From a virus, in IMG/VR virus record IMGVR_UViG_3300036860_000398, positions 1 through 42,905 of that record: a stretch of DNA of 42,905 nt; one strand, given 5' to 3'. The notes under the pieces are model-generated. The model worked only from the letters and a program-made list of their open reading frames with translations. It was not told the origin of the DNA and ran no database searches. The position numbers and the translations under genes are program-made. Below are positions 128 to 39,532 of this stretch, piece by piece (the stretch's first letter is position 1; every line of letters begins with the position of its first letter).

Positions 128-1377
128 AGCGCCATATGCGGGATAGACGTGGTGTCGTCGTTGCTCCAGTTCGTCGTGCCGTTCGCGATGGCGTAGTGGG
201 AGCCGGAGCCGAAGAGCCGCGCCTCGCTGACGTCCGTGAATCCATTCAGCGTCCCCGTGCTGTACGCTTGGGGGCCGGTGCTGGCGCCGGAGAATGTCAC
301 CACAATCCGATAGGGCGTCGCGCGTTGCAGGGTGTAGGGTGCGGACAGCATGTAGCCGATGGCGGTTGTCGTTCCAAGCTGCATCGTCCCGTTGATTAAA
401 AAGGTCCCGGGGGCCGCCGTATCCGCACTGATCTCGACGCCCGAGGTGGTCAGCGCCAAGGCCGTGCTGACGGCATAGACTCTGAGGCTGTCGGTCAGGC
501 CCGGGAGGCGCCACCCTTTGCGGTTGGTGTTCGACGCCGGGGTGACCAGCGTGACACAGCCGACGCCAAACACGGCGCCATCATTGAACTTCAGCACGAG
601 CCCCGGCCAGGCCAGCAGCGCCGTCATATTGACCGTGGTGTTGTTGATGGCCGTCGCGGTATAGGCGTCGTAGCCGCCACGATTGAGCACGGGCGCGCTA
701 ATCGATTCCCCAATGCCGACCGCGACCGTAACGTTATTGCTGCCGGGCGTGCCCGTGGTATTGCCGAGAATGATCCACTGGGTCTCCACCACCGGTGAGT
801 ACGCCGTCGGCACCAATTGATGCCAGGCGACCATGGTGGCGTCGGCCGTGGGATCATCCGTGCCACTCGTGCGAATGGTCGTCGTGGCGCGCGGATTCGT
901 CAGGGTGGCGTCCGTCGTGGTGACTTCGGCATAGATGCTCGTCGGGGAGCCCGCCGAGGCCGTGACGTAATAGTAAATGGCGTCGAGATTGCCGTGGGCG
1001 ACCGCCAAGAAGAGCCGCGCACACGCCGAGGTCGCAACGGTGTTGTTCGCGTAGGTGTTACTGAGCGCGAGCGCCGTCTGCGCCAAGGCGGCGGTGCCGG
1101 AGAATCCCAGGATCATCTTGGGGGCCTGACGACTGCCTTGTATCCCCGTGGCGTACACCGGCACCCAGCGCTCGCTCCGCACCCCCCGCGCCAGCGCGGC
1201 GATCTCCGCCCGGCGCTGCTCACGGCGATCGCGCTGGTCGGCCCACTCGTGGGTTCCCTCGTAGGGCGCCAGCGTCGCCGTGTGGCGGTCCAGAATGAAC
1301 GGCCGACTGTAGCCGCGCACCGCGTGCAGCCACCGCACGCGCTCGTAGCGGCCCAGCATCCGCCCGGCCCGCGTCAT
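82..1377 (-). CDS. beta-rich virion protein, probably tail-associated
   Basis: The protein has 431 residues. The ATG at 1377 overlaps the stop of the upstream gene (ATGA), which argues against longer in-frame starts. The first 60 residues are basic and rich in Arg and Trp. The rest is rich in Thr, Ala, Ser, Val and Asn with alternating hydrophobic residues, typical of beta-sandwich or beta-helix virion proteins. It lies between tail tubular A and, across the circle junction, tail tubular B, so it is probably a tail or fibre component. I recognise no specific family. It has two Cys residues, one in the context GCVTL. Confidence 0.6.
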   Translation of the reverse strand: MTRAGRMLGRYERVRWLHAVRGYSRPFILDRHTATLAPYEGTHEWADQRDRREQRRAEIAALARGVRSERWVPVYATGIQGSRQAPKMILGFSGTAALAQTALALSNTYANNTVATSACARLFLAVAHGNLDAIYYYVTASAGSPTSIYAEVTTTDATLTNPRATTTIRTSGTDDPTADATMVAWHQLVPTAYSPVVETQWIILGNTTGTPGSNNVTVAVGIGESISAPVLNRGGYDAYTATAINNTTVNMTALLAWPGLVLKFNDGAVFGVGCVTLVTPASNTNRKGWRLPGLTDSLRVYAVSTALALTTSGVEISADTAAPGTFLINGTMQLGTTTAIGYMLSAPYTLQRATPYRIVVTFSGASTGPQAYSTGTLNGFTDVSEARLFGSGSHYAIANGTTNWSNDDTTSIPHMALLVEDQGAPQTGWFV

Positions 1378-1805
1378 CAGGCAAAGCCTCGGGTCCAGAT
1401 GGCGAAGTACGAGGTGCCGTCGTACTTGAGCGAGACGGCATCCTTCGCGGCGGCCGTGGTGGACAGCATCACGGCACAGCCGCCCGGCCATAGCGTGCCC
1501 GCCGGCCACATCACCAGGCCGGTCCCGGTCGCGCTCTGCACCACGGTCAGATGATAGGTGCCCCCACTGGTGGCATTGGTCGGCGCGCCGAGCACCGTGG
1601 TGGTGGCATCCGTGAGCGTGAACTGATGCCACGCGCTACAGGCCCAGTCGAGCGTGAGGGCCGCGCCCACCGTGCCGTTGTTGAAGACGGCGCAGAGGCC
1701 GGCCGCCCCGCCGGCCGCCCCGCCGGCCGTGGAGATGAGTTCTCCCCGCGTGGTGCGAAGTTCCTGATCGCGCCAGCTCACCCGCCGTAAAACCCGCGTG
1801 CGCAT
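1377..1805 (-). CDS. small beta-sandwich tail protein
   Basis: The 142-residue protein starts one base after the tail tubular A stop codon. The central part (WHQFTLTDATTTVLG, then TYHLTVVQSATG and a WPAGTLWPGG turn, then KYDGTSYFAIW) resembles the small beta-sandwich module common in phage tail fibre and minor tail proteins. A Gly/Ala hinge near residue 28 is encoded by a direct repeat of gccggccgcccc-type sequence. Three Cys occur in the contexts LCAVF, ACSAW and GCAVM. The exact function is not known. Confidence 0.65.
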   Translation of the reverse strand: MRTRVLRRVSWRDQELRTTRGELISTAGGAAGGAAGLCAVFNNGTVGAALTLDWACSAWHQFTLTDATTTVLGAPTNATSGGTYHLTVVQSATGTGLVMWPAGTLWPGGCAVMLSTTAAAKDAVSLKYDGTSYFAIWTRGFA

Positions 1806-1806
1806 G

Positions 1807-2658
1807 CTAGCGCCACCACCACGGCTTGAGACTCGTCGAGCCCTCGTAGCGCACGTCGATGAGCTCGCGCGAGATGATTTTCTCGGGGGTCCCCTCCTGC
1901 CCGTCCCACGTCCGCGCCTTTTTCAGCTCGTCCTGATACTTCGCCCAGAAACGGTCAAACTTCGCCGCTTGTCCCGTGATGGCCTCGGAGAGACTGGCCG
2001 CGAGGTGATAGACGACCGCCATCACGAAGTTGGGCGGCCACAGCGTCGTGTTGGTGATCTGCCGGATGTAGCGCAGGTTGAGGCTATCGGCGTCGCTGAC
2101 AATGAAGCCTTCTTCCACCTGATAGCGTTCGCGGTCTTCCACCCGCCAGACGCGGAGCGCGTCCGTGGGATACGTGATGGAGCGCGCGTAGTCGAAAGCG
2201 GGGGCTTTGTTGTAGAGCCGCCACTGCCCGCACGGGATGGTGGCCAGCGTCGAGAACGGCGTCGTGATGTCGCCAATCGCGAACACCGTGCAGGAAACAA
2301 GGGTGATGGTGGCTTTGCCGGTGAAGTGACTGGTACAGGTCACATCCGGCTCGATCGTTTTCCCCACATCCGCGTCCGTGAAGAGCCCGCACGACACGGT
2401 GAAGGTCACGCAGGTGCCGGTGGTGGCCCCCGCCTGCAACGTGGTCACCGGCTCGCAGAACGAGTCGAGCGTGACCCGGCGCATCGCGAAGTTCCAGGGA
2501 TGGCCCTGCAAGGTCGCGTCCCGCACGGTGATGTAGTGGCGATTCACGAGGATGCCGCGACGAGTATTCAGAAGATCCGCCGCGATCACGGGCGTCTCCC
2601 CGAGCAGGCTCAACGCCTGATTCATGATGTCCAGCTCGGTCAGCGTGGAGGTGGCCAT
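1807..2658 (-). CDS. tail tubular protein A-like (T7 gp11-like adaptor)
   Basis: The 283-residue protein likely forms the ring joining portal to nozzle. Its N-terminus (ELDIMNQALSLLGETPV, then RDATLQGHPWNFA near residue 50) matches the tail tubular A pattern of an NxALxLLG helix followed by R-D-x-L-x-x-HPWNFA. The C-terminal half has the expected helical segments (MAVVYHLAASLSEAITGQ, FWAKYQDELKKAR). Residues about 65-140 form a beta-rich insertion with six Cys, including GTCVTF, SCGLF, SCTVF and PCGQW. The TAATG overlap with the upstream gene suggests coupling. Confidence 0.88.
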   Translation of the reverse strand: MATSTLTELDIMNQALSLLGETPVIAADLLNTRRGILVNRHYITVRDATLQGHPWNFAMRRVTLDSFCEPVTTLQAGATTGTCVTFTVSCGLFTDADVGKTIEPDVTCTSHFTGKATITLVSCTVFAIGDITTPFSTLATIPCGQWRLYNKAPAFDYARSITYPTDALRVWRVEDRERYQVEEGFIVSDADSLNLRYIRQITNTTLWPPNFVMAVVYHLAASLSEAITGQAAKFDRFWAKYQDELKKARTWDGQEGTPEKIISRELIDVRYEGSTSLKPWWWR

Positions 2659-3263
2659 TAGCCGCTATAGCTCGACGGACTGGCCGTGATCGCGGTGCGG
2701 TTGCTCGAGGTGTCGATGGTGGCGACAATCCGGGTGGTGCACGCATCGGGCGTCTTGCGCGTCGTGCCGCCCCCGCTACTCGCCCCCGCCGTGGCCGACA
2801 AGATCAGACTGGTCGCCTGCTGCAAGGTGTAACTGCCACACGTCTCCACGACTTGGCGAACCGTGCAGGACGCGATGGCTTGGTAGGTCGGCAAGGCGTA
2901 GGTCTGCTCGAAGAGCCCGCAGGATGACGTGACCGTGAGCTTCACCCAGTCGGCCGCGGCAAAGAGCATGGCGTTGGGCACATCCAGGCGATAGAGCCCA
3001 CACATGTTCACGGAGTCGACTTCCGCCCAGTTCCCCGATCCGTACGCGGCGCCCAGCGTGGCCGCCGACAAGGTGATGGCCGTCGGTCCGCCTGACCCCT
3101 GGCGCCAGTAGCGCGCCGTCGCCTTGTCGATGGTCACGCAGGAGATTCCCGCACTGCCGGCATTGCCCGCCGTGCCATCCACCACGCGCCGGATCAGCAC
3201 CGGCACCGTGACCGAAGTGGCGTCAGCCTTGATCGCGGATTCGGAAAGGAAATTATCCGCCAC
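2658..3263 (-). CDS. beta-rich virion protein, baseplate or fibre-associated type
   Basis: The 201-residue protein starts at GTG. It resembles a widespread uncharacterised phage family: an early strand with ARYWRQGSGG, then ITLSAATLG, WAEVDSVNM, YRLDVPNAML and WVKLTVTS. In relatives I remember, the segment after NM is usually PGxYELxxP; here it reads NMCGLYRLDVP. The six Cys include SCGLF and MCGLY. The C-terminal third is low-complexity Ser/Thr/Gly. Its place beside tail tubular A and the fibre genes suggests an adaptor or fibre-attachment role, which is inference. Confidence 0.6.
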   Translation of the reverse strand: MADNFLSESAIKADATSVTVPVLIRRVVDGTAGNAGSAGISCVTIDKATARYWRQGSGGPTAITLSAATLGAAYGSGNWAEVDSVNMCGLYRLDVPNAMLFAAADWVKLTVTSSCGLFEQTYALPTYQAIASCTVRQVVETCGSYTLQQATSLILSATAGASSGGGTTRKTPDACTTRIVATIDTSSNRTAITASPSSYSG

Positions 3264-3393
3264 GTGATTTCTCCACGGGTTCGGTCAAGGGCTGGGGAAG
3301 TCTCGTGCGCAGCTCGGCGTTTTCCAAGCGCGCGGCCTCGAGCTGATAGGTCAGACGGCCGATGATGAGATAGACGAGCTCTTCGTTGGTCAT
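3253..3393 (-). CDS. small coiled-coil protein (46 aa)
   Basis: It begins with MTNEELVYLIIGRLTYQLEA and continues with a charged, heptad-like helix rich in Leu, Glu and Arg. The ATG overlaps the stop of the upstream fibre gene (ATGA), and the 3' end overlaps the next GTG start by 11 nt, so it fits the translationally coupled operon exactly. It is probably a short helical oligomerisation or chaperone-like protein. No function is recognised. Confidence 0.6.
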   Translation of the reverse strand: MTNEELVYLIIGRLTYQLEAARLENAELRTRLPQPLTEPVEKSRGG

Positions 3394-4046
3394 GCGATCC
3401 TCAGGTAGCCGTTGCAGCTCCAGATTTCACCGGCCGGAAGTCCGTTCGGACTGGTCGGCCACGCCGTATTGCGGACATGGCCGCGGAAGGTCGTGCACTG
3501 CCGACTGTCGATCGTCAGCGCCAAGGTTTCCACCCCGCCGCTCGTGACCGTGAGAATCTGGACACACCCCGGAACTTGGGCCGCGCCCACGGTGCCATCC
3601 ACGGCGACGCGAAGACGCGCACTCGTCTGATAGGCGGCCCCGTCGTAGCCGGCGTAAAACGTCTCGCCGATCACGTCGTCCTTGAGGGCGGCCGTGGGAC
3701 TGGCCGGGGTGCCCCGACTCCGCGCAAAGGTCATCCAGGAGTCGCCCACATCGGGCGTGGCGCTCCCACTGACGAGGTGAATGCCTGCCGCAACGGTCGT
3801 ACTCGAGATGATGAGCTGGTCGGTGGTCCCTGACCACGTGCTCGTGAACGCCGTGGACGGCCCGAGCACCGAGCCCGGCCCGCCGTAGAAGAGGCTGCAC
3901 GAGCCCGTGACGTAGGTCGTGCAGTGGAACAGCACCGTCCCTTCGCCGAGGCCGCTCAGCCGGTGATCCTGATTCCAGTACGACACCTTGATGTGAGCGG
4001 TGGCGTTGTCGGGCACCGTGCCGGTGAAGGCGTGTTTCAGAGGCAT
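3390..4046 (-). CDS. tail fibre-like protein
   Basis: The protein has 218 residues. The N-terminus MPLKHAFTGTVPDNATAHIK and the following YWNQDHRLSG resemble the start of many short phage fibres that attach near the tail. The section with MTFARSRGTPASPTAALKDD, a GETFYAGYDG turn and LRVAVDGTVG matches the repeat-rich fibre domain often preceding a chaperone or knob. It has five Cys, including HCTTY, SCSLF and QCTTF. No intramolecular chaperone domain is visible. Confidence 0.68.
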   Translation of the reverse strand: MPLKHAFTGTVPDNATAHIKVSYWNQDHRLSGLGEGTVLFHCTTYVTGSCSLFYGGPGSVLGPSTAFTSTWSGTTDQLIISSTTVAAGIHLVSGSATPDVGDSWMTFARSRGTPASPTAALKDDVIGETFYAGYDGAAYQTSARLRVAVDGTVGAAQVPGCVQILTVTSGGVETLALTIDSRQCTTFRGHVRNTAWPTSPNGLPAGEIWSCNGYLRIA

Positions 4047-5537
4047 CTAGGCCGCCGTGCAGAGTTGCGAGGCGAAGTTGTTGGTGAAGGCCGCGCCACA
4101 GACCCGGGAGATGCCGAGGGCCCCGCTTCCCGCACTCGAGCCGCCTTGATAGCCCAGCGCTTCAGGCTTCTGAAAGCCATCCGCCCCGAATCCGATGCCT
4201 TGGTAGCCGTCCGCGTCGAAGCTGGTAGCGACCGCCCCCGTAATGAGATTCAGTGCGGAAGAAGCGGGATCGGTGGGGCAGACCTGGGGACAGGGATTCG
4301 GGATGAACGCGGTGCCGCACACGAGCGATGCCCCCAAGACACCAGACAGGAGACCCGGCGTCACCGCCCCGATGCGCACCACGCCCATGAACCCACAGCC
4401 GTTCGGGGTCGTAGTGTCCATGCGATGCGACCGAGTCCACGCGATGGTGGCGCCCGACACCACGCCGCGCCACGCCTCGAAGGCGAAGCCGCCCAGGTTG
4501 AAGAGCACCCCGGTCACGCTGCCGTCGTCGGCGAGGGCGAGCTGGGTGGCGATCATGTAGTTGATTCCCAGCACGAGATCGACGCCAGGCTGGAGGTTGT
4601 AAGTCCCCTCCGTGGGAAAGGTCACCCCGCCGTCGGTGGACATCCGAAACGGCTTCATGTTGGTGGGGGCGTTCGGTGGGCCTTCCACGGTCAGGATCAG
4701 CGTGGTGGCATTCAGGGCGATGACGTCGTTGACCTGCTGACCGTCCTGTCCCACCGGCAGCGAGATCCCGGCCGTGACGTCTGTCCAGCTCGCGCCGCCG
4801 TTCGTCGACCGCACCAGATAGCGCCCGCTGCCGAGGGTGCGCCCCCCTGCGACGAGAGTGCCGGGGCTCGGCTCGCAGATGGACGTGATCGAGAAGAATT
4901 GCCCGGCCACCCAGCCTGGAGGCGCAGGAAGGGGCGTCTGGGTGAAGCTCACCCCGCCGTTCGTGGAGGTCCAGATATTCGGCACGGCATAGCCGGCGTC
5001 GGCGGGGCCGAGCCAGAGCGTCCCCGCACTGTCCTTGAAGCCCCGGTAGATCGCGATCGGGGCCGGCGCTAGGGCGACGGGCGTGTTGAACGTCAGCCCG
5101 CCATCCGAGGACTTGAGAATATGATAGCCGCTGACCCCCTGGACCTTGAAGAGTCCGAGCGCCCAGATGTCGGTCGCGGTCAGCGCGAACACATGGCGCG
5201 TCGTCCAGGTATCACTCTGGGGCGGCGTGGCCTTGAAGACCGAGAGCGGAACCACGCCAGACCAGGACACGGCTTGATTGGTGCTCCGGGCGACGCAGTA
5301 GGGCAACGTGACGGTGGTGGTGAAAAACGGTCCCCCCAATGGCGCAAAAACAGCGCCGGAGACGGGATCGATGCTGGCCCAGAAGTAGTCCGTGTGCCCG
5401 AGCTCGTCCACGCTCGTGAGATCGGCTTGCTGGGTCCAGCTCTGGCCGTTGTCGTCCGAGGTGAAGATGTGATTCGGCTGGGCGCCGGGCGTGCCCGCGT
5501 TCTGGTCTTCGATCTCCCAGACCAGCCGGTTAGCCAC
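4047..5537 (-). CDS. Asp-box (BNR) beta-propeller tail protein
   Basis: The 496-residue protein starts at GTG. It carries five sialidase-type Asp-boxes of the form S-x-D/N-x-G-x-x-W/F at about residues 27-34, 143-150, 191-198, 244-251 and 300-307, plus a degenerate one near 85-92. Asp-boxes mark beta-propellers in sialidases and other glycan-processing or glycan-binding proteins. The catalytic arginine triad of true sialidases cannot be assigned by eye, so binding is as likely as hydrolysis. The last 100 residues carry paired Cys motifs (VCGTAF, PCPQVCP, VCGAAF, LCTAA). It is probably a receptor-binding spike. Confidence 0.72.
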   Translation of the reverse strand: MANRLVWEIEDQNAGTPGAQPNHIFTSDDNGQSWTQQADLTSVDELGHTDYFWASIDPVSGAVFAPLGGPFFTTTVTLPYCVARSTNQAVSWSGVVPLSVFKATPPQSDTWTTRHVFALTATDIWALGLFKVQGVSGYHILKSSDGGLTFNTPVALAPAPIAIYRGFKDSAGTLWLGPADAGYAVPNIWTSTNGGVSFTQTPLPAPPGWVAGQFFSITSICEPSPGTLVAGGRTLGSGRYLVRSTNGGASWTDVTAGISLPVGQDGQQVNDVIALNATTLILTVEGPPNAPTNMKPFRMSTDGGVTFPTEGTYNLQPGVDLVLGINYMIATQLALADDGSVTGVLFNLGGFAFEAWRGVVSGATIAWTRSHRMDTTTPNGCGFMGVVRIGAVTPGLLSGVLGASLVCGTAFIPNPCPQVCPTDPASSALNLITGAVATSFDADGYQGIGFGADGFQKPEALGYQGGSSAGSGALGISRVCGAAFTNNFASQLCTAA

Positions 5538-5667
5538 GTTCCCGCACCTCGAGGAAGAGGGCGGCGCGCCACACGAGCTCGGCGTCCTCGGCCGTGTCCA
5601 CGTGGATCTGCGGCTTGCGGAGCTGACCCACGGCGCCCGCGGCCCGCGCGAGCGAGAGGACCGTCAT
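5530..5667 (-). CDS. small protein (45 aa), unknown
   Basis: The predicted protein starts MTVLSLARAAGAVGQL and ends with an acidic helix (TAEDAELVWRAALFLEV). It sits immediately after the preceding small gene and overlaps the propeller gene start by 8 nt. No family is recognised. Support comes from its fit in the chain of overlapping genes. Confidence 0.45.
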   Translation of the reverse strand: MTVLSLARAAGAVGQLRKPQIHVDTAEDAELVWRAALFLEVRERG

Positions 5668-5781
5668 TCAGTTCACCGTCCGGCCGCGCGCGTCTTCGTA
5701 GGGGCCAAAGACTCGGCGCGCCCGCACGTCGGCGACGAGACTCGCCGGCACCTCAGGCAGCAGTGCGGAAACACGGTTCAT
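5668..5781 (-). CDS. small protein (37 aa), unknown
   Basis: It starts MNRVSALLPEVPASLVADV, with an ATGA overlap to the upstream membrane-protein stop. It has a mixed hydrophobic and charged composition and no recognised family. It could be a short virion or regulatory peptide. Confidence 0.4.
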   Translation of the reverse strand: MNRVSALLPEVPASLVADVRARRVFGPYEDARGRTVN

Positions 5782-5879
5782 GGGCGGCGCCAGAGCAGCA
5801 GCGCCCAGGTGCCAAGAATGGCCACCGTCCAGAAGAGGTAGTAGGGCCAGTTGGCGACGACGTAGCTCTGGAGGTTCAG
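5778..5879 (-). CDS. tiny single-span membrane protein with likely CTG start (33 aa)
   Basis: The frame encodes LNLQSYVVANWPYYLFWT, then a hydrophobic stretch to the end (VAILGTWALLLW) and RRP, giving one membrane span with a basic C-terminus. No ATG or GTG exists in frame. The first plausible codon is CTG at 5877-5879, which overlaps the upstream stop as CTGA, the same layout as the ATGA and GTGA junctions elsewhere. A GGAGG lies about 6 nt upstream of it. A holin or antiholin role is possible but not shown. Confidence 0.45.
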   Translation of the reverse strand: MNLQSYVVANWPYYLFWTVAILGTWALLLWRRP

Positions 5880-6118
5880 ACGACACCTCCCAGCACGGTT
5901 ACGGTGTCCGCGATATCGACCGTGATGCCCAAGCCCTGCGCCGCGGCCTTGGCCGCCGCCACGATGGCGGCATTGGCGAGGGTGGCCGACGGACTCACGG
6001 GCAGCACCGCGCCCGATGAGAACTCTTGGCCGGTGGAGGCCACCACGGTAAACTGCGCCACCGCTTGCCCGTTGCCCGCGTTCGCACACCCGGTGACACA
6101 GACGATGAGATTCGCCAT
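5876..6118 (-). CDS. small beta-type protein (80 aa), unknown
   Basis: It begins MANLIVCVTGCANAGNGQ and has an AAG GAGG-type ribosome-binding site just upstream. An Ala-rich helix (about residues 44-62) is followed by a Val/Thr-rich end. It lies directly behind the lectin-like fibre gene and may be a small fibre-associated protein. No family is recognised. Confidence 0.5.
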   Translation of the reverse strand: MANLIVCVTGCANAGNGQAVAQFTVVASTGQEFSSGAVLPVSPSATLANAAIVAAAKAAAQGLGITVDIADTVTVLGGVV

Positions 6119-6128
6119 TAGCCCTCCT

Positions 6129-7406
6129 TTAGCGATTCACCCGTTGCGTCGCATAGGAGAAAAAATCCACCACGAACGAGCGGAGCGTCCCGGCGGTATT
6201 GGTCACCATCAGCGCCATGGGCGCGAGCGCTTGCGTGGTGATCCGGGCCCGGACGGTATCGCCCCCAGAGGTCGCCTTCGTGAACACTTTTTCGGTCACG
6301 AACACGCCGCAGCCCTGGCCATCGGATAACGTGAACAGGACGCGGTTGCCGCAGTCCTGCCGAATGCGCAGCTTGTACCAGGCGCTCGCGGAGGGCGCCC
6401 ACCCCGTGCTCATCTGGCTGCAGAGCGAGGCTTCGCGCGTCTCGAAATAAAACAGGCAATCCTGGAAGCCATTCTCCTTGTCAAAGCGGAGCCAGAACCC
6501 GTCGGTCGGCTGCACGGTGGTCATGCCCCCGGAGTTGAAGCCCAAACCGATGCGGAACCGATTGCCGGCCAGGGAGTTGCCGGTCTGAAAGATCCACGTG
6601 GCATCCCAGTTGCCCAGCGCGGCCAGGTTGCCCAAGGGGCCCACGCCGGAACTATCCAAGGTGATGCCGCCGCCCTGGCTTAGGGTGGTCGTGGTCTGGA
6701 TCTGGAGTTGCCCGAAGTTGGGGGTGGCACCCGCGAGATACGCCGCCGTCGGCGCCGCCCCGATGCTGCGCAGGACCCAGTTGTAGTTGCCGATGCCCGA
6801 GGACGCCGTATTGCCCCCCGTAAAATCATCGCGAATGGTCACGAAGCCCGGATCGCGCTCCATCTGAGGGCCGTTGACCGTCCCGTCCGACACCGTGAGC
6901 GTGCCGCAGTCATTCCAGACCGCGCCAAGCTGGGTGGGATCGCGGACGGCCATGTTCGCGACGTTCATGGCCGACAGGACGGCGCAGCCGGTCAGTTGAA
7001 GCGCATTACAGGTCGTGTCGAAGATGAAGGCACTACAGCCGGCGAAGCTGGTCCCGCTCGCAAACTGCACGGACTGATCGGGACTCGCGGCCGAGCCGCC
7101 CGTGGCCGCGATGGTCAAGGCGTGATTGGCCGCGTTCGGCGTCAGGGTGATGTTGCTTCCGGCCGTGAGCACTTGCGAATTGGTGGGCGGATCGCCCGTC
7201 ATGTCCACCATCACGTAGGTGCCGCAGGCCCCCACGGTGGCCACATGGGTGCCCACGTTGCGCGACAGGAAGGTGCCGCAGCCGGCCGTCAGCGTCGAGT
7301 AATTAAACGGCGGCGTGCCGGTCGCGTCCGCCGTGAAGAAGGTCGCGCACTCGCCCGTGAAGGTGGTACAGCCGCCCCCACCCCCGCCCCCGAAAAAACT
7401 ACTCAT
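6129..7406 (-). CDS. Cys-rich tail fibre with lectin-like C-terminal domain
   Basis: The 425-residue protein opens with a Gly hinge (MSSFFGGGGGGG). A fibre-like region with turns such as TYVMVDMTGDPP and VLTAGSNITLTPN follows. The last 230 residues (RDDFTGGNT, then WVLRSIGAA, ATWIFQTGN, FRIGLGFNS, DGFWLRFDKENG, WYKLRIRQ) look like a concanavalin-A-like jelly-roll. It has twelve Cys, most in C-x-x-aromatic or aliphatic settings (CTTF, CATF, CGTF, CGTY, CSAF, CGVF). It is probably a receptor-binding fibre. Confidence 0.65.
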   Translation of the reverse strand: MSSFFGGGGGGGCTTFTGECATFFTADATGTPPFNYSTLTAGCGTFLSRNVGTHVATVGACGTYVMVDMTGDPPTNSQVLTAGSNITLTPNAANHALTIAATGGSAASPDQSVQFASGTSFAGCSAFIFDTTCNALQLTGCAVLSAMNVANMAVRDPTQLGAVWNDCGTLTVSDGTVNGPQMERDPGFVTIRDDFTGGNTASSGIGNYNWVLRSIGAAPTAAYLAGATPNFGQLQIQTTTTLSQGGGITLDSSGVGPLGNLAALGNWDATWIFQTGNSLAGNRFRIGLGFNSGGMTTVQPTDGFWLRFDKENGFQDCLFYFETREASLCSQMSTGWAPSASAWYKLRIRQDCGNRVLFTLSDGQGCGVFVTEKVFTKATSGGDTVRARITTQALAPMALMVTNTAGTLRSFVVDFFSYATQRVNR

Positions 7407-7735
7407 CCGGGAATGCGCGTGTAGGTCACCCAGCCCGTGACCGCTACGCCCGCGGAGAGGTTAATCACGAAATCGTTTCCTGCCCCCAACTTGATGAGTG
7501 GGCGGCTGATCCCTTCCAGACAGTGCGCGCCCTGGCCGGCGCCCGCGAAGTTGAACCCGGCGCCATTGATCGACGTGGTGCCGTCTTTGTAGATCACGGT
7601 CACCGCCGCCGTGGGCCAGAGGACGAGCTGCCAGATGCGCGTCCGCTGATTCGCCTGGCCGGCGATAACCGTGGTATCGCCCCCGCTCGAGACGTTGATC
7701 TCGGCGCGGAGCTCTTCGTTGAGGTCGCCGAACAT
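7403..7735 (-). CDS. small beta-rich virion protein (110 aa)
   Basis: The start at ATG 7735 (MFGDLNEELRAEINVSSGGD) is preferred because the upstream in-frame part is the shadow of the membrane-protein gene. The sequence is beta-rich (RIWQLVLWPTAAVTVIYKDG, FVINLSAGVAVTGWVTYT), consistent with a small fibre-tip or spike-cap protein. Its stop overlaps the fibre gene start (ATGA). No specific family is recognised. Confidence 0.55.
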   Translation of the reverse strand: MFGDLNEELRAEINVSSGGDTTVIAGQANQRTRIWQLVLWPTAAVTVIYKDGTTSINGAGFNFAGAGQGAHCLEGISRPLIKLGAGNDFVINLSAGVAVTGWVTYTRIPG

Positions 7736-7748
7736 CAGCGGACCGGCA

Positions 7749-7931
7749 TCATCCTTTGATCGGGAACCCGAAGGCGTGCCAGCCGAGGAGGAAGAGGAGA
7801 ATCCAGAGCAGCAGGCTACCGCCGAGCGGCGCCCAGGCCGGCCCCGTGCCTGCCCCCGGCCAGTGCGGCCAGAAGACGCCAAAGAAGAGCCAGAGCACCA
7901 TGAGCAGCCAGAACAGGAAACCGATAGTCAT
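7749..7931 (-). CDS. small membrane protein with two spans, holin candidate
   Basis: The 60-residue protein starts MTIGFLFWLLMVLWLFFG. A Pro/Gly/Trp loop and a second span (LLLWILLFLLGWHAFG) follow, ending in a Lys. Size and topology fit small phage holins, and it lies beside the lipoprotein-like gene. Alternatively it is one of the Trp-rich membrane proteins often found with tail genes. No endolysin gene is adjacent. Confidence 0.5.
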   Translation of the reverse strand: MTIGFLFWLLMVLWLFFGVFWPHWPGAGTGPAWAPLGGSLLLWILLFLLGWHAFGFPIKG

Positions 7932-8208
7932 GGCCGCACCTCGACTGGGGTCACTTTCAGGTTGACCGGGACGCTCACCGCTTCACTCTTCACGCTGAGC
8001 CCGTCTCCGGAGCAGGTCACGTTGCCATTGACGATGTTCGTGCGGGCGACGCGGGCCGTCCCGTAGATCGTATTGACTTGCACACACACGCTGGCCGGAT
8101 CGTCATGGCCTGGATGAGCTCGCTGATGTTCGTCGATGAACACCCACCGAAAAGCGCTAGTGCAAGAAAAAGACCGAAGCCGCGCACTGTCCGCACCAGC
8201 AGGCGCAT
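7928..8208 (-). pseudogene. lipoprotein-like gene split by an apparent -1 frameshift
   Basis: From ATG 8208 the frame gives a signal peptide and lipobox (MRLLVRTVRGFGLFLALALF, then GGCSS) and NISELIQAM, but it then runs into unrelated sequence to a stop at 8017. The frame one base back continues naturally with DPASVCVQVNTIYGTARV, then NVTCSGDGLSVKSE, to the stop at 7928. Together the parts resemble one small phage lipoprotein. The join lies near 8098-8106. A one-base deletion, an assembly error or ribosomal slippage could explain it; I see no classic slippery heptamer. An upstream GTG at 8307, overlapping the previous stop, offers a longer N-terminus with a CIGC motif. Confidence 0.5.
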
Positions 8209-8303
8209 GATGACGTGCAAGGCGTGGTCCTTGGCTTGGAGTTCCAGCTCTTTGAGGCGGCAGCCGATGCACGCCACGGGCGGAAGCGCGAAGGGGGTGC
8301 GCC

Positions 8304-8540
8304 TCACGGAATCACCTCGAGCCACCGACAGGCCGCCCGATAGAGGGCATCGCCGAGATTCACCCCGTGGTTCACGAAGTCCTGCCCCTGACCGCGCGTG
8401 GAGACGCGCCATTCCGCGTGACCTTTCCGTTTGTTCCAGCCCAGCCGTACCAAGACATAGCCCCCTTCCGAGCGGGCGGTAAGAATGAGCAGGAGCCGCC
8501 CGATCTCGTCGGACATGGCCCGCGTGAGCCGCGGCTCCAC
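8304..8540 (-). CDS. small protein (78 aa), unknown
   Basis: The GTG at 8540 has a GGAG about 5 nt upstream. An ATG eight codons later (MSDEIGRLLLILTARSEGGY) is the alternative start. The protein looks alpha/beta (YVLVRLGWNKRKGHAEWRV, then ALYRAACRWLEVIP). No family is recognised. It follows the tailspike gene and precedes the lipoprotein-like gene. Confidence 0.5.
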   Translation of the reverse strand: MEPRLTRAMSDEIGRLLLILTARSEGGYVLVRLGWNKRKGHAEWRVSTRGQGQDFVNHGVNLGDALYRAACRWLEVIP

Positions 8541-8553
8541 CCCGTCTCCATGG

Positions 8554-10653
8554 TCAACTGACGGTGACCGTGGGTGGCGTCCCTACCGGCACGGGCTGGG
8601 GATCGGCCGGCACCATCACGGTCGTACTCGCTTCGACGAGCACCGTGCCGGCGCTATCCTTCAGCCCCACATACGCGGTGGTCGCATTGCTGCCGACGTT
8701 GGTAAACGTGCCGTTCACGAGCACGGTCTTGGGCACAGTCGCCTCCAGGGTCAAGAGTTTCGCTTCGTAGGGCGCGTAGGTCTCCGTGAGCGTGCGGCCA
8801 TCGGGCCGCGTGAAGATGGCCGTCACGGTGGCATTGAGGTAATTGCAGGTGAACACCTGCCCCGTCGTCTTGGCGAGCCAATGAATCGCCGGGCTGCTCA
8901 CGCTCTGAATCAGCGGCGCCGCCTCGGCGATCAGCGCGGGTTCTACCTGGGCGAGTTCATTGACCAGGGTTTTGAATCGGTTCATATACTCGAGCCGATT
9001 CGCGTCCCAGACGTTGGACGGCCCGGCCCCATTGTTGCTGGCCCACGCCAGGGCGTTCGTGCCCAGCGACCACCAGAAGAGGCCCCGGGCCCCTTCGATG
9101 ATGGCCATGTAGGCATGCGTGCGCATCTGCGCGAGGGTCGGCCACGGACTACCGGAGAAGCTGAAGAACTGGAGAACGGCAATCGTGGGCCGGGCATTCT
9201 GCACGGCGGCGACGGAGGCCCGCGTATCCGTGGCCACCTTCTCGTGCGTGTACCCCCCCGTGGGCGCCGGCCCGAACATGGGATAGCTGTCGATGCCGGG
9301 AAGATCACAGACGTCGCGCCACAAGCTGAGGTGATTGAGATTGATGGCGAGCGTCGCGCCCGCGGGATTGAGCGTCAGCAACCGCTGCCGGCGGGTGAAC
9401 GTCGCGGGCACTGTCTCGGGGAACGCTTCGTCTGCGACGTAGTAGCCGGCGAAACCCGGATGCGCGGCGTTGTCCTTGACGTCCTGATCGCTCAGATCGG
9501 TGATGAAAGCGGGGGGCGAGGTGGTGCCGGTCGGATAGGAGCCGTTGAAGACGTTGGCCGTCTGGAAGTAGACGACCCCTCGCGCAAACAACGAGTCCAT
9601 CATGACGCGCATGATCGACGCCGGGGTCGCGCCGAAGAAGTAGTTCAGGTAGGCGTTGAAGTGCGTACCGTCGAGGTGGCGTCCGGCGTTGTCCGTGAGG
9701 CTCCAGAGTTTCGACTCCCAGAACGACGCGGCGCTGCTCGTATCCAGGCCAGAGTCGTAGGCCCCCAGCAGGAACCGGGGCGTCCCGTGGAGCACGATGC
9801 AGTTGTGTTCGTCGCAGGCGACATTCATCAGCGCCTTTTGCGATCCTGGGACGCGGGCCACCCGATACGCCGGCGCGGTATAGGCGCCGGCGGTCACCGT
9901 GACGGTGTGGACCGTCCAGGGCACCATCGCGCTCGCGTCGAGCGTGATCTCCCCATTCATGGCCGGGGCGGTGACGGTGCTCACGACGCCCCCGGCACTG
10001 TCCACGAGTTGCGCCGCGAGCGTGCCCGTCGCCCCGGCCGGCACCGTCACGCCGGCACGAATGGTGAGTGGCTGATCGTCGAAGAGCAGCCCGCGCCAGT
10101 TGGGATAGCGCAGGAAGACGTCGACGGGCAGATCGACCATGCGCTCGAGGGCCACGTCGTCGAACCAAGCGATCCCGCCGGCCGGCATGTGGTACGCCTC
10201 CAAGCTCACCCGATGCTCGGCCGGCGCCGTCACCTCCAGGGCCGGAATGATGACCTGGGTCCATGGGACGGAGGCGCCCGTGATGACCGGGGAGGCGGCC
10301 ACGACGGTGCTGCCCCGGAGCACGGTGACCCGCACCCCGTAGGTCACCCCCGGCAGCGGCGCCGGGGACACCAAGCCCGTGCCGGTGATCCAGACGGTGA
10401 GCCGCCACGTGCCCGCGGCGAGCGTGCACTTCTGAGTGGCCGAGGGCACGAAGGTGGGGGCGTTATACGTCAGCCGCAGACTCTGCGTGCCGCTGTGGGC
10501 CACGGCGGGGTCGAGGGCGAATTGATTGGCCGGCAAGACCGTCCACGCGGTGAGCCCGCTCTCGAAGCCCCCGTTCAGGAGGAGGGACGGGGCAAAGGTG
10601 CGTGCGGGGAGCGCCGTGAGGCCCAGGGGCATGAGATCCGTCAGCGTGGGCAC
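8554..10653 (-). CDS. tailspike with carbohydrate-binding and glycoside-hydrolase-like TIM-barrel domains
   Basis: The GTG at 10653 is preferred because it has a GAGGGG site and avoids overlapping the upstream gene; this gives 699 residues. Residues about 20-172 look like a carbohydrate-binding jelly-roll (LLLNGGFESGLTAW, then SGTQSLRLTY, then GIAWFDDVALE). A beta linker follows. From about 290 to 540 the pattern fits a retaining-type TIM-barrel hydrolase: HFNAYLNYFF, a strand ending YYVADEAFPE with candidate catalytic Glu409, GIDSYPMFGP, and GLFWWSLGTNA. A beta-sandwich ends the protein. It probably cleaves a host capsule or exopolysaccharide. The substrate is unknown. Confidence 0.72.
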   Translation of the reverse strand: MPTLTDLMPLGLTALPARTFAPSLLLNGGFESGLTAWTVLPANQFALDPAVAHSGTQSLRLTYNAPTFVPSATQKCTLAAGTWRLTVWITGTGLVSPAPLPGVTYGVRVTVLRGSTVVAASPVITGASVPWTQVIIPALEVTAPAEHRVSLEAYHMPAGGIAWFDDVALERMVDLPVDVFLRYPNWRGLLFDDQPLTIRAGVTVPAGATGTLAAQLVDSAGGVVSTVTAPAMNGEITLDASAMVPWTVHTVTVTAGAYTAPAYRVARVPGSQKALMNVACDEHNCIVLHGTPRFLLGAYDSGLDTSSAASFWESKLWSLTDNAGRHLDGTHFNAYLNYFFGATPASIMRVMMDSLFARGVVYFQTANVFNGSYPTGTTSPPAFITDLSDQDVKDNAAHPGFAGYYVADEAFPETVPATFTRRQRLLTLNPAGATLAINLNHLSLWRDVCDLPGIDSYPMFGPAPTGGYTHEKVATDTRASVAAVQNARPTIAVLQFFSFSGSPWPTLAQMRTHAYMAIIEGARGLFWWSLGTNALAWASNNGAGPSNVWDANRLEYMNRFKTLVNELAQVEPALIAEAAPLIQSVSSPAIHWLAKTTGQVFTCNYLNATVTAIFTRPDGRTLTETYAPYEAKLLTLEATVPKTVLVNGTFTNVGSNATTAYVGLKDSAGTVLVEASTTVMVPADPQPVPVGTPPTVTVS

Positions 10654-10666
10654 GGATGCAAGCCCC

Positions 10667-11107
10667 TCATTCGGGTTTCCGATTGAGCAAGCGATCGCTC
10701 TTCTCATTCAGCAAGACGAGGGCCCGGTCGATGCGATCCAAGCGCTGCTCGGTCATGGTGCTGCGCACTTCCACCTTGGCCAGCTCCAGGCGGGCCGCGT
10801 TGGCCGTCTCGGCCATGGAATGAATGCGCTCCCGCACGATGTCCACCTGTTCATCCAGGTGCTCGCGCATCGTGGCGTCCCCGCTGGTCTGGGCCTTTCC
10901 CAGCTCGTGGTGGCCCTTCTCCAGCGCGTCAAGCCGGACCGTGTTGGCCTGGTGCAAGAGCAGCACTTGGTTCATGGAGGCTTTCAGATTGGCCTCGTGG
11001 GTGGCCGAGATCCGGCCATACTTGTAGATCCCCCACGCGAGCGTGCCGGCATATAAAAGGGCCTGCGCGACGTCCCGAATGGATACCGACCAATCAATCC
11101 CATTCAC
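10667..11107 (-). CDS. membrane-anchored coiled-coil protein
   Basis: The 146-residue protein starts at a GTG overlapping the upstream stop (GTGA). One N-terminal span (VAQALLYAGTLAWGIYKYG) is followed by about 110 residues of charged coiled coil with heptad Leu/Val/Ile. Topology resembles an inner-membrane spanin or a holin-associated coiled-coil protein, but no partner outer-membrane spanin is obvious. It could also assist tailspike assembly. Confidence 0.55.
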   Translation of the reverse strand: MNGIDWSVSIRDVAQALLYAGTLAWGIYKYGRISATHEANLKASMNQVLLLHQANTVRLDALEKGHHELGKAQTSGDATMREHLDEQVDIVRERIHSMAETANAARLELAKVEVRSTMTEQRLDRIDRALVLLNEKSDRLLNRKPE

Positions 11108-11565
11108 GCGAGCCGAGCTTTGATGGCGTCAATGGCCGTCCGCAGGTCGTCCCGATGCGCCGTCAGCGTGGCGATCTCGACGTCAAGCTGATGCTTGGTC
11201 GCCGCGGCGTCGGCTTCCCGCGCTTTCATCTCGTCCGCTTGTCGCCGCTCGGCATCGCTGATCGCCGCATCGGCTTCCGCCTGCGCCTGCGCCGCCGTGG
11301 CCTGCATCTGCTCGATTTGCTTCGTCACGTCCTCCCGCACCGCCGCCGCCTGCTGCGCGGCCGTGCTCAGACTTTCCTGCTCCGCCTGTCGCTGCGCCTG
11401 GAGCTCGGCGATCTCCCGCTCCAGCCGCGCTTGTTGCTCTCCCAGCTCCTTCACGTGGGCGGTGGCGGCGTCGGCCAGGTCGAGCGCCTCGAGTGCTCGC
11501 GTGATCGGGTCGGCGAGATGGACCTTGGCGAAGTACAACGCCTCGCGCGCTTCGTGACTCTCCAT
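11104..11565 (-). CDS. long coiled-coil protein (153 aa)
   Basis: After about 30 residues (ALYFAKVHLADPITRALEAL) the protein is an almost continuous coiled coil of Ala, Glu, Gln and Arg (about residues 40-150) with no Cys. It could be a minor structural or chaperone-like protein. Its function is unknown. It lies between the capsid block and the membrane coiled-coil gene. Confidence 0.6.
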   Translation of the reverse strand: MESHEAREALYFAKVHLADPITRALEALDLADAATAHVKELGEQQARLEREIAELQAQRQAEQESLSTAAQQAAAVREDVTKQIEQMQATAAQAQAEADAAISDAERRQADEMKAREADAAATKHQLDVEIATLTAHRDDLRTAIDAIKARLA

Positions 11566-11871
11566 TCAGCCCTCCCGATACAGCACGGTCACTTTTTCGG
11601 CGCCCACGCCCTTCACGTCGCGGACGTTCAGCATCGCCACCCGGGCCGGGATCGCATGCAGCCCCCGGAGGCCCTGGACAGGAACTCCTGAGACCAGGGC
11701 AAGCACATCGAAATGCACGCCGTCCAGGGAGCCGACCAGCGTGGCGGTACCGTCCAGGATGTGGACGGTGAGCGGGCCCGTGACCACACGGGGCACGAAG
11801 GTGTCGCCGCTCACTCCGCTCCAGGCCCAGCACTCGGTATTCACGACGCGTTCGGCCTTGACTTCGGCCAT
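11566..11871 (-). CDS. small beta-rich protein near capsid genes (101 aa)
   Basis: It starts MAEVKAERVVNTECWAWSGV and consists mainly of predicted strands (LTVHILDGTATLVGSLDG, HFDVLALVSG, RVAMLNVRDV, KVTVLY). It resembles the small beta-barrel proteins found downstream of capsid genes. A hairpin lies between it and the upstream capsid-associated gene. Exact role unknown. Confidence 0.5.
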   Translation of the reverse strand: MAEVKAERVVNTECWAWSGVSGDTFVPRVVTGPLTVHILDGTATLVGSLDGVHFDVLALVSGVPVQGLRGLHAIPARVAMLNVRDVKGVGAEKVTVLYREG

Positions 11872-11882
11872 GAAGACTCCGT

Positions 11883-11914
11883 GGCTGGGGACCCAGCGAC
11901 CTAGGCCCCCAGCC
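11883..11914 (-). terminator. strong hairpin downstream of capsid-associated gene
   Basis: The arms ggctgggg (11883-11890) and ccccagcc (11907-11914) are perfectly complementary, separated by 16 nt. The hairpin sits in the only spacer between the capsid block and the tail block. No U-tract follows on the minus-strand transcript, so it may weaken rather than stop transcription, lowering tail gene expression relative to capsid. Confidence 0.45.
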
Positions 11915-11927
11915 GGTGACGAACGGT

Positions 11928-12410
11928 TTACGCCCCCGGACGCAAGAACTCCGCGGCCAGCACGATCTTGCTAACGCCGCTGCCCATCGACACGTTGTTG
12001 GTGCGGATCACGATGTCCGACTGCACGGGCACCGGCCACCCGCACGCCGTCATGTTGAAGAGCCCGCACGTCGAGCCGGTGGTGTTCGCCGCCGCCAGGT
12101 TGAGCGTGCCGGTGAAGAGTGAACAGTTGGTGACGGCCCCCGTGGCCGCCGAGTTGACCGGCACGATGCCGACGGTGGCCGTGAGGTTCGCCACCGCGTA
12201 CTCCCAGAACACGCGTCCGTTGAGGATGATGTCGCCTTTCTCGAGACGCACCATGTGGATCTCTTGATCCGCGAAGGCCACGGCACTGCTGCCTTCGAAG
12301 ACCGCGCACGAGCCCATCTGCCGCCCCGGCCAGGGAACGGGAGGCTTGATCGACGGCGTGAGATTGATATTTGTGAGCTCGATCCCGTATACCGCGCTGC
12401 TGACTGGCAT
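11928..12410 (-). CDS. capsid-associated structural protein
   Basis: The 160-residue protein follows the major capsid gene after an AGGAGG site. Features of the family that often accompanies this capsid type are visible: a middle segment IHMVRLEKGDIILNGRVFWE, then GIVPVNSAATG, and a final KIVLAAEFLRPG strand. Four Cys occur as SCAVF, NCSLF, TCGLF and ACGWP. A role in capsid decoration or stabilisation is likely but not proven. Confidence 0.6.
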   Translation of the reverse strand: MPVSSAVYGIELTNINLTPSIKPPVPWPGRQMGSCAVFEGSSAVAFADQEIHMVRLEKGDIILNGRVFWEYAVANLTATVGIVPVNSAATGAVTNCSLFTGTLNLAAANTTGSTCGLFNMTACGWPVPVQSDIVIRTNNVSMGSGVSKIVLAAEFLRPGA

Positions 12411-12431: not shown

Positions 12432-13346
12432 TTAGGCCGATTCGTCGATGCCGATGCTGACCACCGCTTCGTCTTCTACCCGCACCGCGCCCTGCACAAA
12501 TTTCACGATGATCCGGAGGTTGTTCCACTTCCCCGGATCGCGCACCATCTCCGTGTTGAAGTCCCGCGCGAGATTCGCCGTCACGGCATCCCGCTGCCAG
12601 GCAATGCACGTGCGGATGTTGCCGCTCTTGGGCAGGATCGGCGAGGCCATGGTGGTCCCACCGCCGAGGGCATCCGTGACTTTCAGCCACTGGAAGCCCA
12701 TGTAGATTGCGCCCTCTTTGATCGTCCCCGTCATCAGGGCTTGCAGACTGGAAAAGTCCGCGCTGGTGACTTGTGAGTCCGACAGTAGCTTTTCGATGGC
12801 GAATGGCGACACCGCGATGTGGCGCCCTTCCGTGCGCACGCCGTTGACGTCCAGGATTCGGTACGCTTGGCGCAATTTCGCGATGGTCATGTTGGTGCCG
12901 CCGTTGGCGATGGCCTGGCCGCTCGGCAAGGCCACACTCGTCACTGCATCCGCCGCGGAGACCGACAGCGCGGAGCCCAGCATGGCGGTAGTGATGGTCA
13001 GGGCGGTTTGCCGGTTGTACGCATACGCGAAGTTGCGCGCGTAGTCGTTCTCCGGCGAAATCAGCATTTTCACTTCGTCGATATCGTCGATCATCTCGCT
13101 CAGACCGAAGTCCGCGAGCGTCAACCGACGACGGGTATGGATGAACGGGGTCAGATCGGTGTCGGCGTGCCGGCTAAGGATCTGCACGGCTTCGACACCT
13201 TGCAACCGCTCCACGTTGAAGGTCTTGCCCTTGATGCCACTGCGAATCCGCACGGCGGATCGCCACATCTCGCCCATCTCCTGGGACAAGGTGTAAATCG
13301 TGGCCTCGAAGGCATGGACAAACGCGACGTCCACTGTCCAGGCCAT
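12432..13346 (-). CDS. major capsid protein
   Basis: The 304-residue protein lies in the expected position after scaffold. Its features fit an HK97-fold capsid of podovirus type: an N-terminal helix (HAFEATIYTLSQEMGEMW), an E-loop-like stretch (KGKTFNVERLQG), RRRLTLADFG, a long helix (FAYAYNRQTALTITTAML), and P-domain strands (RHIAVSPFAIEKLL, SADFSSLQALMTGTIKEGAI). It has one Cys. The start has an AGGGAGTCC site. Confidence 0.85.
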   Translation of the reverse strand: MAWTVDVAFVHAFEATIYTLSQEMGEMWRSAVRIRSGIKGKTFNVERLQGVEAVQILSRHADTDLTPFIHTRRRLTLADFGLSEMIDDIDEVKMLISPENDYARNFAYAYNRQTALTITTAMLGSALSVSAADAVTSVALPSGQAIANGGTNMTIAKLRQAYRILDVNGVRTEGRHIAVSPFAIEKLLSDSQVTSADFSSLQALMTGTIKEGAIYMGFQWLKVTDALGGGTTMASPILPKSGNIRTCIAWQRDAVTANLARDFNTEMVRDPGKWNNLRIIVKFVQGAVRVEDEAVVSIGIDESA

Positions 13347-13753: not shown

Positions 13754-14668
13754 CTAGCCCTCCGGAATCGTGATGGTGCGCGTCAACGCATCCACGCCGC
13801 GACCACCGCGGGCGATGCCGATCAGTGCATGGAATTTTTCCAGCGCTTGCACGTGGCCGGGATGCGAGCCGTTCCAATACGGGCCCTTCTTGTCGGCCAG
13901 CAACGCCGCGATCTGCGCTTCCGCGTCCTCGCGGCTGACTTCGCCGGGAATGTCGCCCGTGATCTCGCCGTCCTCCAGCATGGCCCCGCCGATCCACGCC
14001 AAAAGCTTCACCATCGCGGGACTGTTGCCTGACTCTTGCTCAATGAGATGGGCGATTCGAGGATCGCCAGTTTTCTCCGCCGCCACTCGAGCGGCCTCAC
14101 GAGCAAGAGCCAGGTTCCGCGAATACAGAGGCGAGTTCTTCGGGCCCCAGGACTTCACGAGATCCGCCTCGGCCTCGCGCCGCTCCGTAGCATCTCGGGC
14201 CGTCACCTGATCGGCGCCCTTGATGGCCAGCTCGGCGAAAAGGTCGATGGCGGCCTGCGCCTGCTTCGGGGTGTAGCCCGCACTGTGCAAGCGCGTCAGC
14301 GCGTGGCCCTGGAGCACCGGGTCCCACGTCTTGCCGGGCACCTCCGGCCACGTCACCGGGTACTTGTCGGGCGACTCCGGCACCCCCAGCTTGCCGTGGA
14401 AGGCTTTCCACTCGTCCGGCGTCGCGCCCTCTTTCGGCACCCGAATGGCGTCGCCCACCATGCGCTTGGTTTCCGTGTACGACTTGGCGAGGGCGGCGAT
14501 GTCCTTGAAGGACTCCAGCGACTTGTCGGCGCGCAGGTCCTCGGGCAGCACATTCCGCCACGTGAGATTGACCAGCTCGGCATCGGACAGCTTCTCCCAA
14601 TCGGGTTCGCTGGGAGCGCCGTTCGTCTCGTGGGCGACGGTTGGGGCTGTGACGACTTCATCCGCCAC
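13754..14668 (-). CDS. scaffolding protein
   Basis: The 304-residue, acidic, mostly helical, Cys-free protein lies directly between portal and capsid. The conserved-looking centre (LPEDLRADKSLESFKDIAAL, AKSYTETKRMVGDAI, PDEWKAFHGKLGVP, ESPDKYPV) matches phage scaffold proteins of this group. The C-terminal region (EDAEAQIAALLADKKGPYWN, then HPGHVQALEKFHAL) is the usual capsid-interacting helical end. It would assemble the procapsid and then leave. Confidence 0.85.
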   Translation of the reverse strand: MADEVVTAPTVAHETNGAPSEPDWEKLSDAELVNLTWRNVLPEDLRADKSLESFKDIAALAKSYTETKRMVGDAIRVPKEGATPDEWKAFHGKLGVPESPDKYPVTWPEVPGKTWDPVLQGHALTRLHSAGYTPKQAQAAIDLFAELAIKGADQVTARDATERREAEADLVKSWGPKNSPLYSRNLALAREAARVAAEKTGDPRIAHLIEQESGNSPAMVKLLAWIGGAMLEDGEITGDIPGEVSREDAEAQIAALLADKKGPYWNGSHPGHVQALEKFHALIGIARGGRGVDALTRTITIPEG

Positions 14669-24422: not shown

Positions 24423-24433
24423 GCGCGGTCCTT

Positions 24434-33983: not shown

Positions 33984-34195
33984 TTCTTCTTGTGCTCCTT
34001 CTCGTGCTCGTGGGCTGCGCAGGTCCTACCTACCTCGGCCAGCCCGACCGCGATTTCCGGCGAGACAACTATGAATGCAAACGCGCATCCGAGACCTTCT
34101 GGGCGGGCAGCGTGATGATGGCGCTGGCGGCGAAGTACGAGGCCAACAAGCGCTACGCCGAATGCATGGAAGTGCGCGGCTACGAGCGGCGCTAG
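33980..34195 (+). CDS. small lipoprotein of the repressor operon (71 aa)
   Basis: MILLVLLLVLVGCAGPTYLG is a short signal peptide with a lipobox ending in Cys13. The mature part has two more Cys (YECKRASETFW, YAECMEVRGYERR) that could form a disulfide. Lipoproteins encoded beside phage repressors often act in superinfection exclusion or host conversion. The fold here is unknown. Its TAG stop overlaps the convergent gene's stop. Confidence 0.65.
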   Translation: MILLVLLLVLVGCAGPTYLGQPDRDFRRDNYECKRASETFWAGSVMMALAAKYEANKRYAECMEVRGYERR

Positions 34196-38900: not shown

Positions 38901-39532
38901 TAATAGCCCGTGGAGCCGCCCAGCAAGGAACTGCCATAACTCCGGTAGCGCGGAATCTTGGTCCCCGCATTCGGGAAGCCGGTGGTCGTGTCCTGCACCG
39001 GCACGCCGTAGCCACCCCCGCCGGCGTAGCCTTGGTCAGCGGTCGGCGGGCCGCCGCCCCGCCCGCCGAAGGTGCCCCCTGCCCCGACGTAGGTGGACAC
39101 CCCGGCCGAGACGCCCTTGAGAATCGTGTCCGACCACTGCGTATTCCGCGCGCGGTCGTGGATGAAGTCGAAATAGCTCTCTTGCTGCTTGTAGCCGTAC
39201 GCCTGGAGCGTGCTCCGATACAACGCCTTCTGCGCGTCGAGTTCCCCTTGGTAAATCGATTCCGAATACAAGGCCAGCGGAGAGCCGGTCGTGAGCTCCG
39301 CCCCCGTGCTGGCAAACGCGGCGATCTGCTGGTGCAAGAACTTTTCTGCATGACGACGCGCTTCCAGCTTCGCTTGCTCGCCCTGTTGTTCCGCGATCTG
39401 GCGATTTCTTTCTGCGAGGCGTTCCTGATAGCGCGCCATCTGCTGCTCTTGCTCGTGCTGCTGATACGTGCTGTATGCGCTAATTCCTGCAGCCACGACG
39501 GCGAGGGCAGCAGCCGCAGCGATGAAGGCCAT
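38900..39532 (-). CDS. internal virion protein, T7 gp14-like
   Basis: The 210-residue protein has an N-terminal hydrophobic helix (FIAAAAALAVVAAGISAYST), a coiled coil (QEQQMARYQERLAERNRQIA), then the characteristic FASTGAELTTGSPLALYSES and a Gly/Tyr-rich tail. This matches the gp14-type ejection proteins that form the outer-membrane pore. It has no Cys. The start has a GAAGGGAG site. Confidence 0.75.
   Translation of the reverse strand: MAFIAAAAALAVVAAGISAYSTYQQHEQEQQMARYQERLAERNRQIAEQQGEQAKLEARRHAEKFLHQQIAAFASTGAELTTGSPLALYSESIYQGELDAQKALYRSTLQAYGYKQQESYFDFIHDRARNTQWSDTILKGVSAGVSTYVGAGGTFGGRGGGPPTADQGYAGGGGYGVPVQDTTTGFPNAGTKIPRYRSYGSSLLGGSTGY

Follow-up and report, generated by a model that had tools for sequence, protein, structure and literature searches.

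A recurrent cysteine-x-x-aromatic motif in predicted outer virion proteins of an uncultured podovirus

One would expect the residues of a virus particle to be acquired separately in each gene. Why, then, should one short cysteine signature recur in many structural genes of a single phage? We address this question with the IMG/VR record IMGVR_UViG_3300036860_000398, which was analyzed over its whole length (the window, 42,905 bases, 65% GC) and has its main genes all on the minus strand. Judged by its gene families the phage is an uncultured podovirus with a BPP-1/T7-like particle; the order and families of the portal, scaffold, capsid, cement position, connector and nozzle genes are like those of BPP-1/BcepC6B-type phages and T7-like podovirus tails (PHROGs 394, 376 and 332). 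The exterior location of virion proteins was assigned from family and synteny. No close sister phages were found, the nearest proteins being about 34-42% identical, and a search for the host in genome contigs via the nozzle and the methyltransferase gave no match.

The motif and its coding

The pattern C-x-x-[F/Y] occurs at 23 sites in seven predicted outer virion proteins (Table 1), mostly in the form C-[GAST]-[TVL]-[FY]. The aligned cysteine contexts, read by eye, give the consensus [GSAT]-C-[GTAS]-[TVL]-[FY]; the motif is loose in that +1 is other than Gly, Ala, Ser or Thr at 3 of the 23 sites and +2 is variable. The genome's other genes lack the signal, and within the set of ten exterior genes it is absent from 82-1380, 4047-5537 and 5876-6118. 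The motifs quoted in an earlier note on this DNA were all recovered, on the minus strand and in the genes it named, as were its cysteine counts for the fibre at 6129-7406 (12), the scaffold (none) and the capsid (one); its figure of at least ten motif-bearing proteins has to be lowered to seven.

Table 1. Predicted virion proteins of the window, with family assignment, cysteine content and motif positions.
Predicted product	Coordinates	Strand	Length (aa)	Cys	Family match or basis	Motifs and remarks
Tail-fibre-type protein	1377..1805	-	142	3	phrog_9017 tail fiber protein, 1.4e-8	CAVF 1683-1694; also CSAW, CAVM
Tail tubular A / connector	1807..2658	-	283	6	phrog_394, 5e-36	CVTF 2401-2412, CGLF 2380-2391, CTVF 2281-2292, CGQW 2221-2232; mostly in inserted domain of ~85 aa
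Predicted virion protein	2658..3263	-	201	6		CGLY 2991-3002, CGLF 2910-2921, CGSY 2829-2840
Tail-fibre-type protein	3390..4046	-	218	5	phrog_18345 tail fiber protein, 6e-7	CTTY 3912-3923, CSLF 3888-3899, CTTF 3486-3497, CNGY 3405-3416
Fibre-like protein	6129..7406	-	425	12	Pfam PF22237 SO2946-like C-terminal domain, 2.4e-7	CTTF 7359-7370, CATF 7338-7349, CGTF 7269-7280, CGTY 7215-7226, CSAF 7026-7037, CLFY 6447-6458, CGVF 6300-6311
Predicted capsid cement/decoration protein	11928..12410	-	160	4	Synteny only: directly after major capsid gene, as in relatives	CAVF 12297-12308, CSLF 12114-12125, CGLF 12057-12068
Tail tubular B / tail nozzle	40510..42813	-	767	7	phrog_376, 1.6e-154 over residues 1-765	CGLF 41215-41226 (C530), CSFY 40912-40923 (C631); other gained Cys C543, C583, C694
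Major capsid protein	12432..13346	-		1	phrog_3437, 1e-58	Without motif
Scaffold	13754..14668	-		0	phrog_3742, 3.8e-41
Internal virion proteins (three genes)	34192..39532	-		0	phrog_6651, 1e-41; phrog_418, 4e-24
Portal				4 (0.71%)	phrog_332	Cys content inside relatives' range

In the ten exterior proteins C[GAST].[FY] was seen 20 times with 1.5 expected (per-protein shuffle, p<=2e-4); the fibre at 6129-7406 alone has seven C..[FY] with 1.0 expected. This set overlaps the selection made in the earlier note; a choice-free set, consisting of all long non-overlapping ORFs of the record, still gave 18 against 2.2 expected. The same ten coding sequences contain 1.72% cysteine (55 in 3,203 aa) versus 0.56% in fifteen other genes. 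An aromatic residue stands at +3 of 25 of the 55 cysteines, as compared with a background of 9%, and no other offset is comparable. When all residue pairs were scanned at offsets 1-10 (4,000 tests), C..F at +3 ranked first (p 1.3e-9, Bonferroni 5e-6); next came C-G at +1 and C-T at +2, each of which fails correction alone.

A DNA repeat, a sequencing artefact or an altered genetic code could in principle mimic cysteine at UGY. In favour of such an artefact are three identical 12-mers, TGCGGGCTCTTC, at 2380, 2910 and 12057, the identity of which the earlier note had correctly pointed out. They are accounted for by codon bias, since GGG precedes 26 of 69 other G-L pairs and CTC and TTC are the preferred codons; the fourth CGLF, in tail tubular B, is spelled with CTG. 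In the motif genes TGY-N6-TWY occurs 23 times in frame versus 3 times out of frame, and the motif cysteines are encoded by both TGC and TGT. The in-frame signal, the synonymous codons and the absence from other genes therefore indicate a pattern at the protein level. A DNA-level repeat or restriction-type site was ruled out, as the signal is in frame only and the codon choice is ordinary. A reassigned UGY was also ruled out: capsid C247 aligns with Cys in three relatives (L004, L009 and L013) and portal C135 with Cys in several, so the code is standard and UGY encodes Cys. Together, these results make an artefact highly improbable. A single shared domain or duplication was rejected as the source of all motifs, because a common domain exists in just two of the proteins, connector and nozzle, and is free of Cys in the latter. 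The motif is a real protein-level pattern, confined to one genome among the loci examined.

Homologues, other viruses and structure models

Wherever an alignment with homologues is possible, the cysteines are gains. Among 92 relatives of the nozzle, the column of C530 contains no Cys (G 53, T 18, D 6, A 6) and neither does that of C631 (A 50, N 20, S 16); the Tyr at +3 of C631 is Pro in 70 of the 92. One relative each has Cys at C543 and at C694, and C583 lies within an insertion. The nearest homologue that shares the inserted domain of the connector (L024) has T, G, V, a gap, S and T at the six cysteines. In the protein at 2658-3263 one site reads NMCGLYRLDVPNA in this phage versus NMPGVYRLDVPDA in a homologue (L018), and 71 of 72 homologues have P at C88. 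Most of these homologues were collected with a pattern requiring P, but the separate scan for the Cys version (below) gave no family member. Relatives of the fibre at 1377-1805 have A, Q, L or T at C56 and Q, V, A or S at C110, and four relatives of the one at 3390-4046 have K, N, G or R at C161. In all, gains were seen in five families, with Gly, Ala, Ser, Thr, Asp, Asn or Pro as the replaced residues. The statement in the earlier note that relatives have A-G, D-G or P-G at these places is borne out for the nozzle (G/T/D/A before G) and for 2658-3263 (P-G). Hence homologues do not carry the cysteines at the same rate and the enrichment exceeds expectation, the two points on which that note had let its claim stand or fall.

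The fibre at 6129-7406 and the predicted cement protein have no sequence relatives at useful similarity, and the latter had no family match in PHROG and Pfam profile searches. No close relatives of these two proteins or of 2658-3263 were found in the viral contigs; a scan of the contigs for the Cys version of the MPG-Y-R-L-D site gave two DNA matches and no family member.

The enrichment does not extend to the other viral loci examined. C[GAST].[FY] was seen 79 times with 107 expected in about 169 other viral loci combined, that is 44 versus 65 in the first ~98 (reference phages and, for the most part, loci related through the nozzle) and 35 versus 42 in 71 further loci; even the most enriched loci contain just one or two motifs apiece. 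Unlike the phage analyzed here, podovirus relatives show no enrichment of C[GAST].[FY], with 0-1 per exterior set (vir555 excepted, with 3 versus 1.3), and lack the gained cysteines at aligned sites. This vir555 (L007, host given as Methanomicrobiales) seemed mildly enriched, its exterior proteins having 11 C..[FYW] versus 4.2, and was rejected because its sites lack the small-residue context. The record L024 (IMGVR_UViG_3300005833_000026), which has homologues of the connector, inserted domain included, and of the two large internal proteins, is without the motif; at L024:20656-21639 it encodes a protein made mostly of short GSAHVVAW-type repeats.

An AlphaFold2 model of the nozzle built from 35 sequences (pLDDT 82) has a podovirus nozzle fold, with the nozzle 8ck1_A as best PDB match (TMq 0.74) and T7 gp12 also matched. 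The model places C530 in a turn that joins strand 521-527 to strand 531-540, and C543 in the loop that follows. C583 is predicted in a disordered loop and C631 in the loop leading into strand 633-637, while strand 682-695 has C694 at its end. These turn, loop and strand-end sites would be compatible with surface thiols. C530 and C543 are at opposite ends of one 10-residue strand, which rules out pairing between them within that hairpin. The inserted domain of about 85 aa in the connector (aa 66-148) is related to one in the nozzle (aa 159-237; BLAST 2e-4 to 2e-6); only the connector copy gained cysteines. In the connector's own AlphaFold model this domain has low confidence (pLDDT ~40-50); mapped onto the paralogous domain of the nozzle model, C90, C123 and C143 fall in loops and C83 near a strand start. 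In most of the modelled motifs the outgoing strand begins at the aromatic residue or close to it.

Possible roles of the cysteines

Seven or more genes that differ in origin share a four-residue signature in this one genome, and relatives do not have it at the sites concerned; this implies a single selective pressure on the particle as a whole. The recurrence suggests a chemical feature of the whole particle, such as cross-linking or modification, and the simplest reading is that one pressure acts on many outer proteins. The reading that we favour, with a probability of roughly 0.4, is that surface cysteines cross-link the particle after lysis. Several outer proteins would have independently gained Cys at turn-to-strand junctions of beta-rich domains, and the thiols would be exposed and kept reduced in the host cytoplasm. 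After lysis they would oxidize to disulfides, mainly between neighbouring subunits, and so stiffen the outer particle, i.e. cement, connector, nozzle and fibres. The +3 aromatic would fix the turn to the outgoing strand and keep the thiol facing outward. The excess of Cys in the exterior proteins, its absence from the scaffold and internal proteins, the gains in five families and the modelled positions of the five nozzle cysteines all speak for this reading, as does the precedent of the phages Milano and 7-7-1 (see below). Against it are the single Cys of the capsid protein, the hairpin in which C530 and C543 are unable to pair and the lack of a thiol oxidase or thioredoxin-like gene among the ORFs scanned. 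Moreover, a small-x-aromatic context after Cys is not something that disulfides require, which argues against a plain disulfide reading.

Since disulfides alone leave the +3 aromatic unexplained, the main rival is a code for modification or ligand binding. C-[GAST]-[TVL]-[FY] may be a recognition sequence whose thiol is the target of an enzyme from host or phage, or of a small ligand or cofactor, so that the virion surface becomes decorated (e.g., by thiolation, glycan, lipid or metal). A local context as strong as C..F at +3 is what such a motif should have, and the motif recurs in unrelated proteins with different codons, partly on residues that are non-aromatic in relatives, as at +3 of C631. 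We nevertheless hold this to be on the unlikely side, because no modifying enzyme was recognized among the ORFs scanned, where the sole transferase-like match is a generic methyltransferase (23568-24563), because the context is loose and because a 'CXXF motif' is named in no paper of the literature searched. Neither lipobox, CaaX, CxPxR nor CxxCH fits the aligned contexts by eye, and the literature searched yielded no papers on phage S-glycosylation or surface-exposed virion thiols. A version in which selection spread the motif so that one host or phage activity modifies or couples each thiol, giving a uniform particle surface, seems less likely still.

Free surface thiols might also serve in infection, through thiol-disulfide exchange or through metal-mediated binding to the surface of the host or to habitat particles. 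The enrichment in tail fibres, nozzle and predicted cement would fit, as would the turn and loop sites predicted for the nozzle. The connector is partly buried in T7-like tails. It bears the motif as well, and no precedent was found in the literature searched, so that we regard this role as quite improbable. We are similarly doubtful that the pattern reflects packing without chemistry, with Cys as a neutral or stabilizing small hydrophobic residue before a strand-start aromatic, fixed by drift or local-fold preference. Some relatives do have the aromatic or the x-G-x-aromatic frame (NMPGVY; F/Y in 30 of 92 nozzles; GVTF in the L024 connector). However, no other small or turn residue in the same proteins is associated with an aromatic at +3 (seen/expected: N 0/3.5, D 4/4.1, G 14/9.7, S 8/6.5, A 9/9.5), and the ~169 other viral loci show no such preference.

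Comparison with disulfide-reinforced phages

Among known systems the nearest is the Agrobacterium phage Milano, whose structural proteins contain 2.4% Cys, most of it in disulfides, and whose resistance to sonication and heat is abolished by DTT (PMC10491603); phage 7-7-1 is similar to Milano (PMC12796354). Like these disulfide-reinforced virions and that of OLIVR4, the present phage has high Cys over many structural proteins, as read here from the sequence. In the 19 Milano CDS that we counted, Cys makes up 2.18%, with 3 C..[FYW] versus 9.6 expected and 1 C[GAST].[FY] versus 2.5. Milano, a contractile myophage, has more than one Cys in the major capsid protein, several in fact, and does not show the C-x-x-aromatic motif; unlike Milano, the podovirus has one Cys in its capsid protein, a conserved family Cys, and four in its portal, and its motif is restricted to predicted outer, beta-rich proteins. 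The precedent of Milano does not explain the Cys context, the lack of extra capsid Cys or the non-pairing hairpin positions.

The earlier note had proposed a particle stabilized by surface cysteines or a surface code. What stands is that Cys is enriched in the predicted outer proteins, is absent from aligned homologues and exceeds what composition and codon usage account for; its plain disulfide form is disfavoured by the local context and by Milano, which lacks the motif. If disulfide reinforcement is true, this phage would be a second, differently built case beside Milano; if a modification code is true, phages would have a new means of tailoring their surface. Both readings provide a compact set of sites for testing.

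Some other genes deserve mention. The exterior-set gene 4047-5537 encodes a BNR/Asp-box-repeat protein with eight Cys and no C..[FY]; it has VCGTAF and VCGAAF at its C-terminus, with the aromatic at +4. The 717-aa protein of 8554-10707 has no Pfam, PHROGs or NCBIfam match, and parts of it look glycoside-hydrolase-like by eye. The region 22537-24563 encodes a multi-membrane-span protein, O-antigen-ligase-like by eye (no Pfam/NCBIfam match), beside the methyltransferase (PF08242); these are possibly surface-polysaccharide genes.
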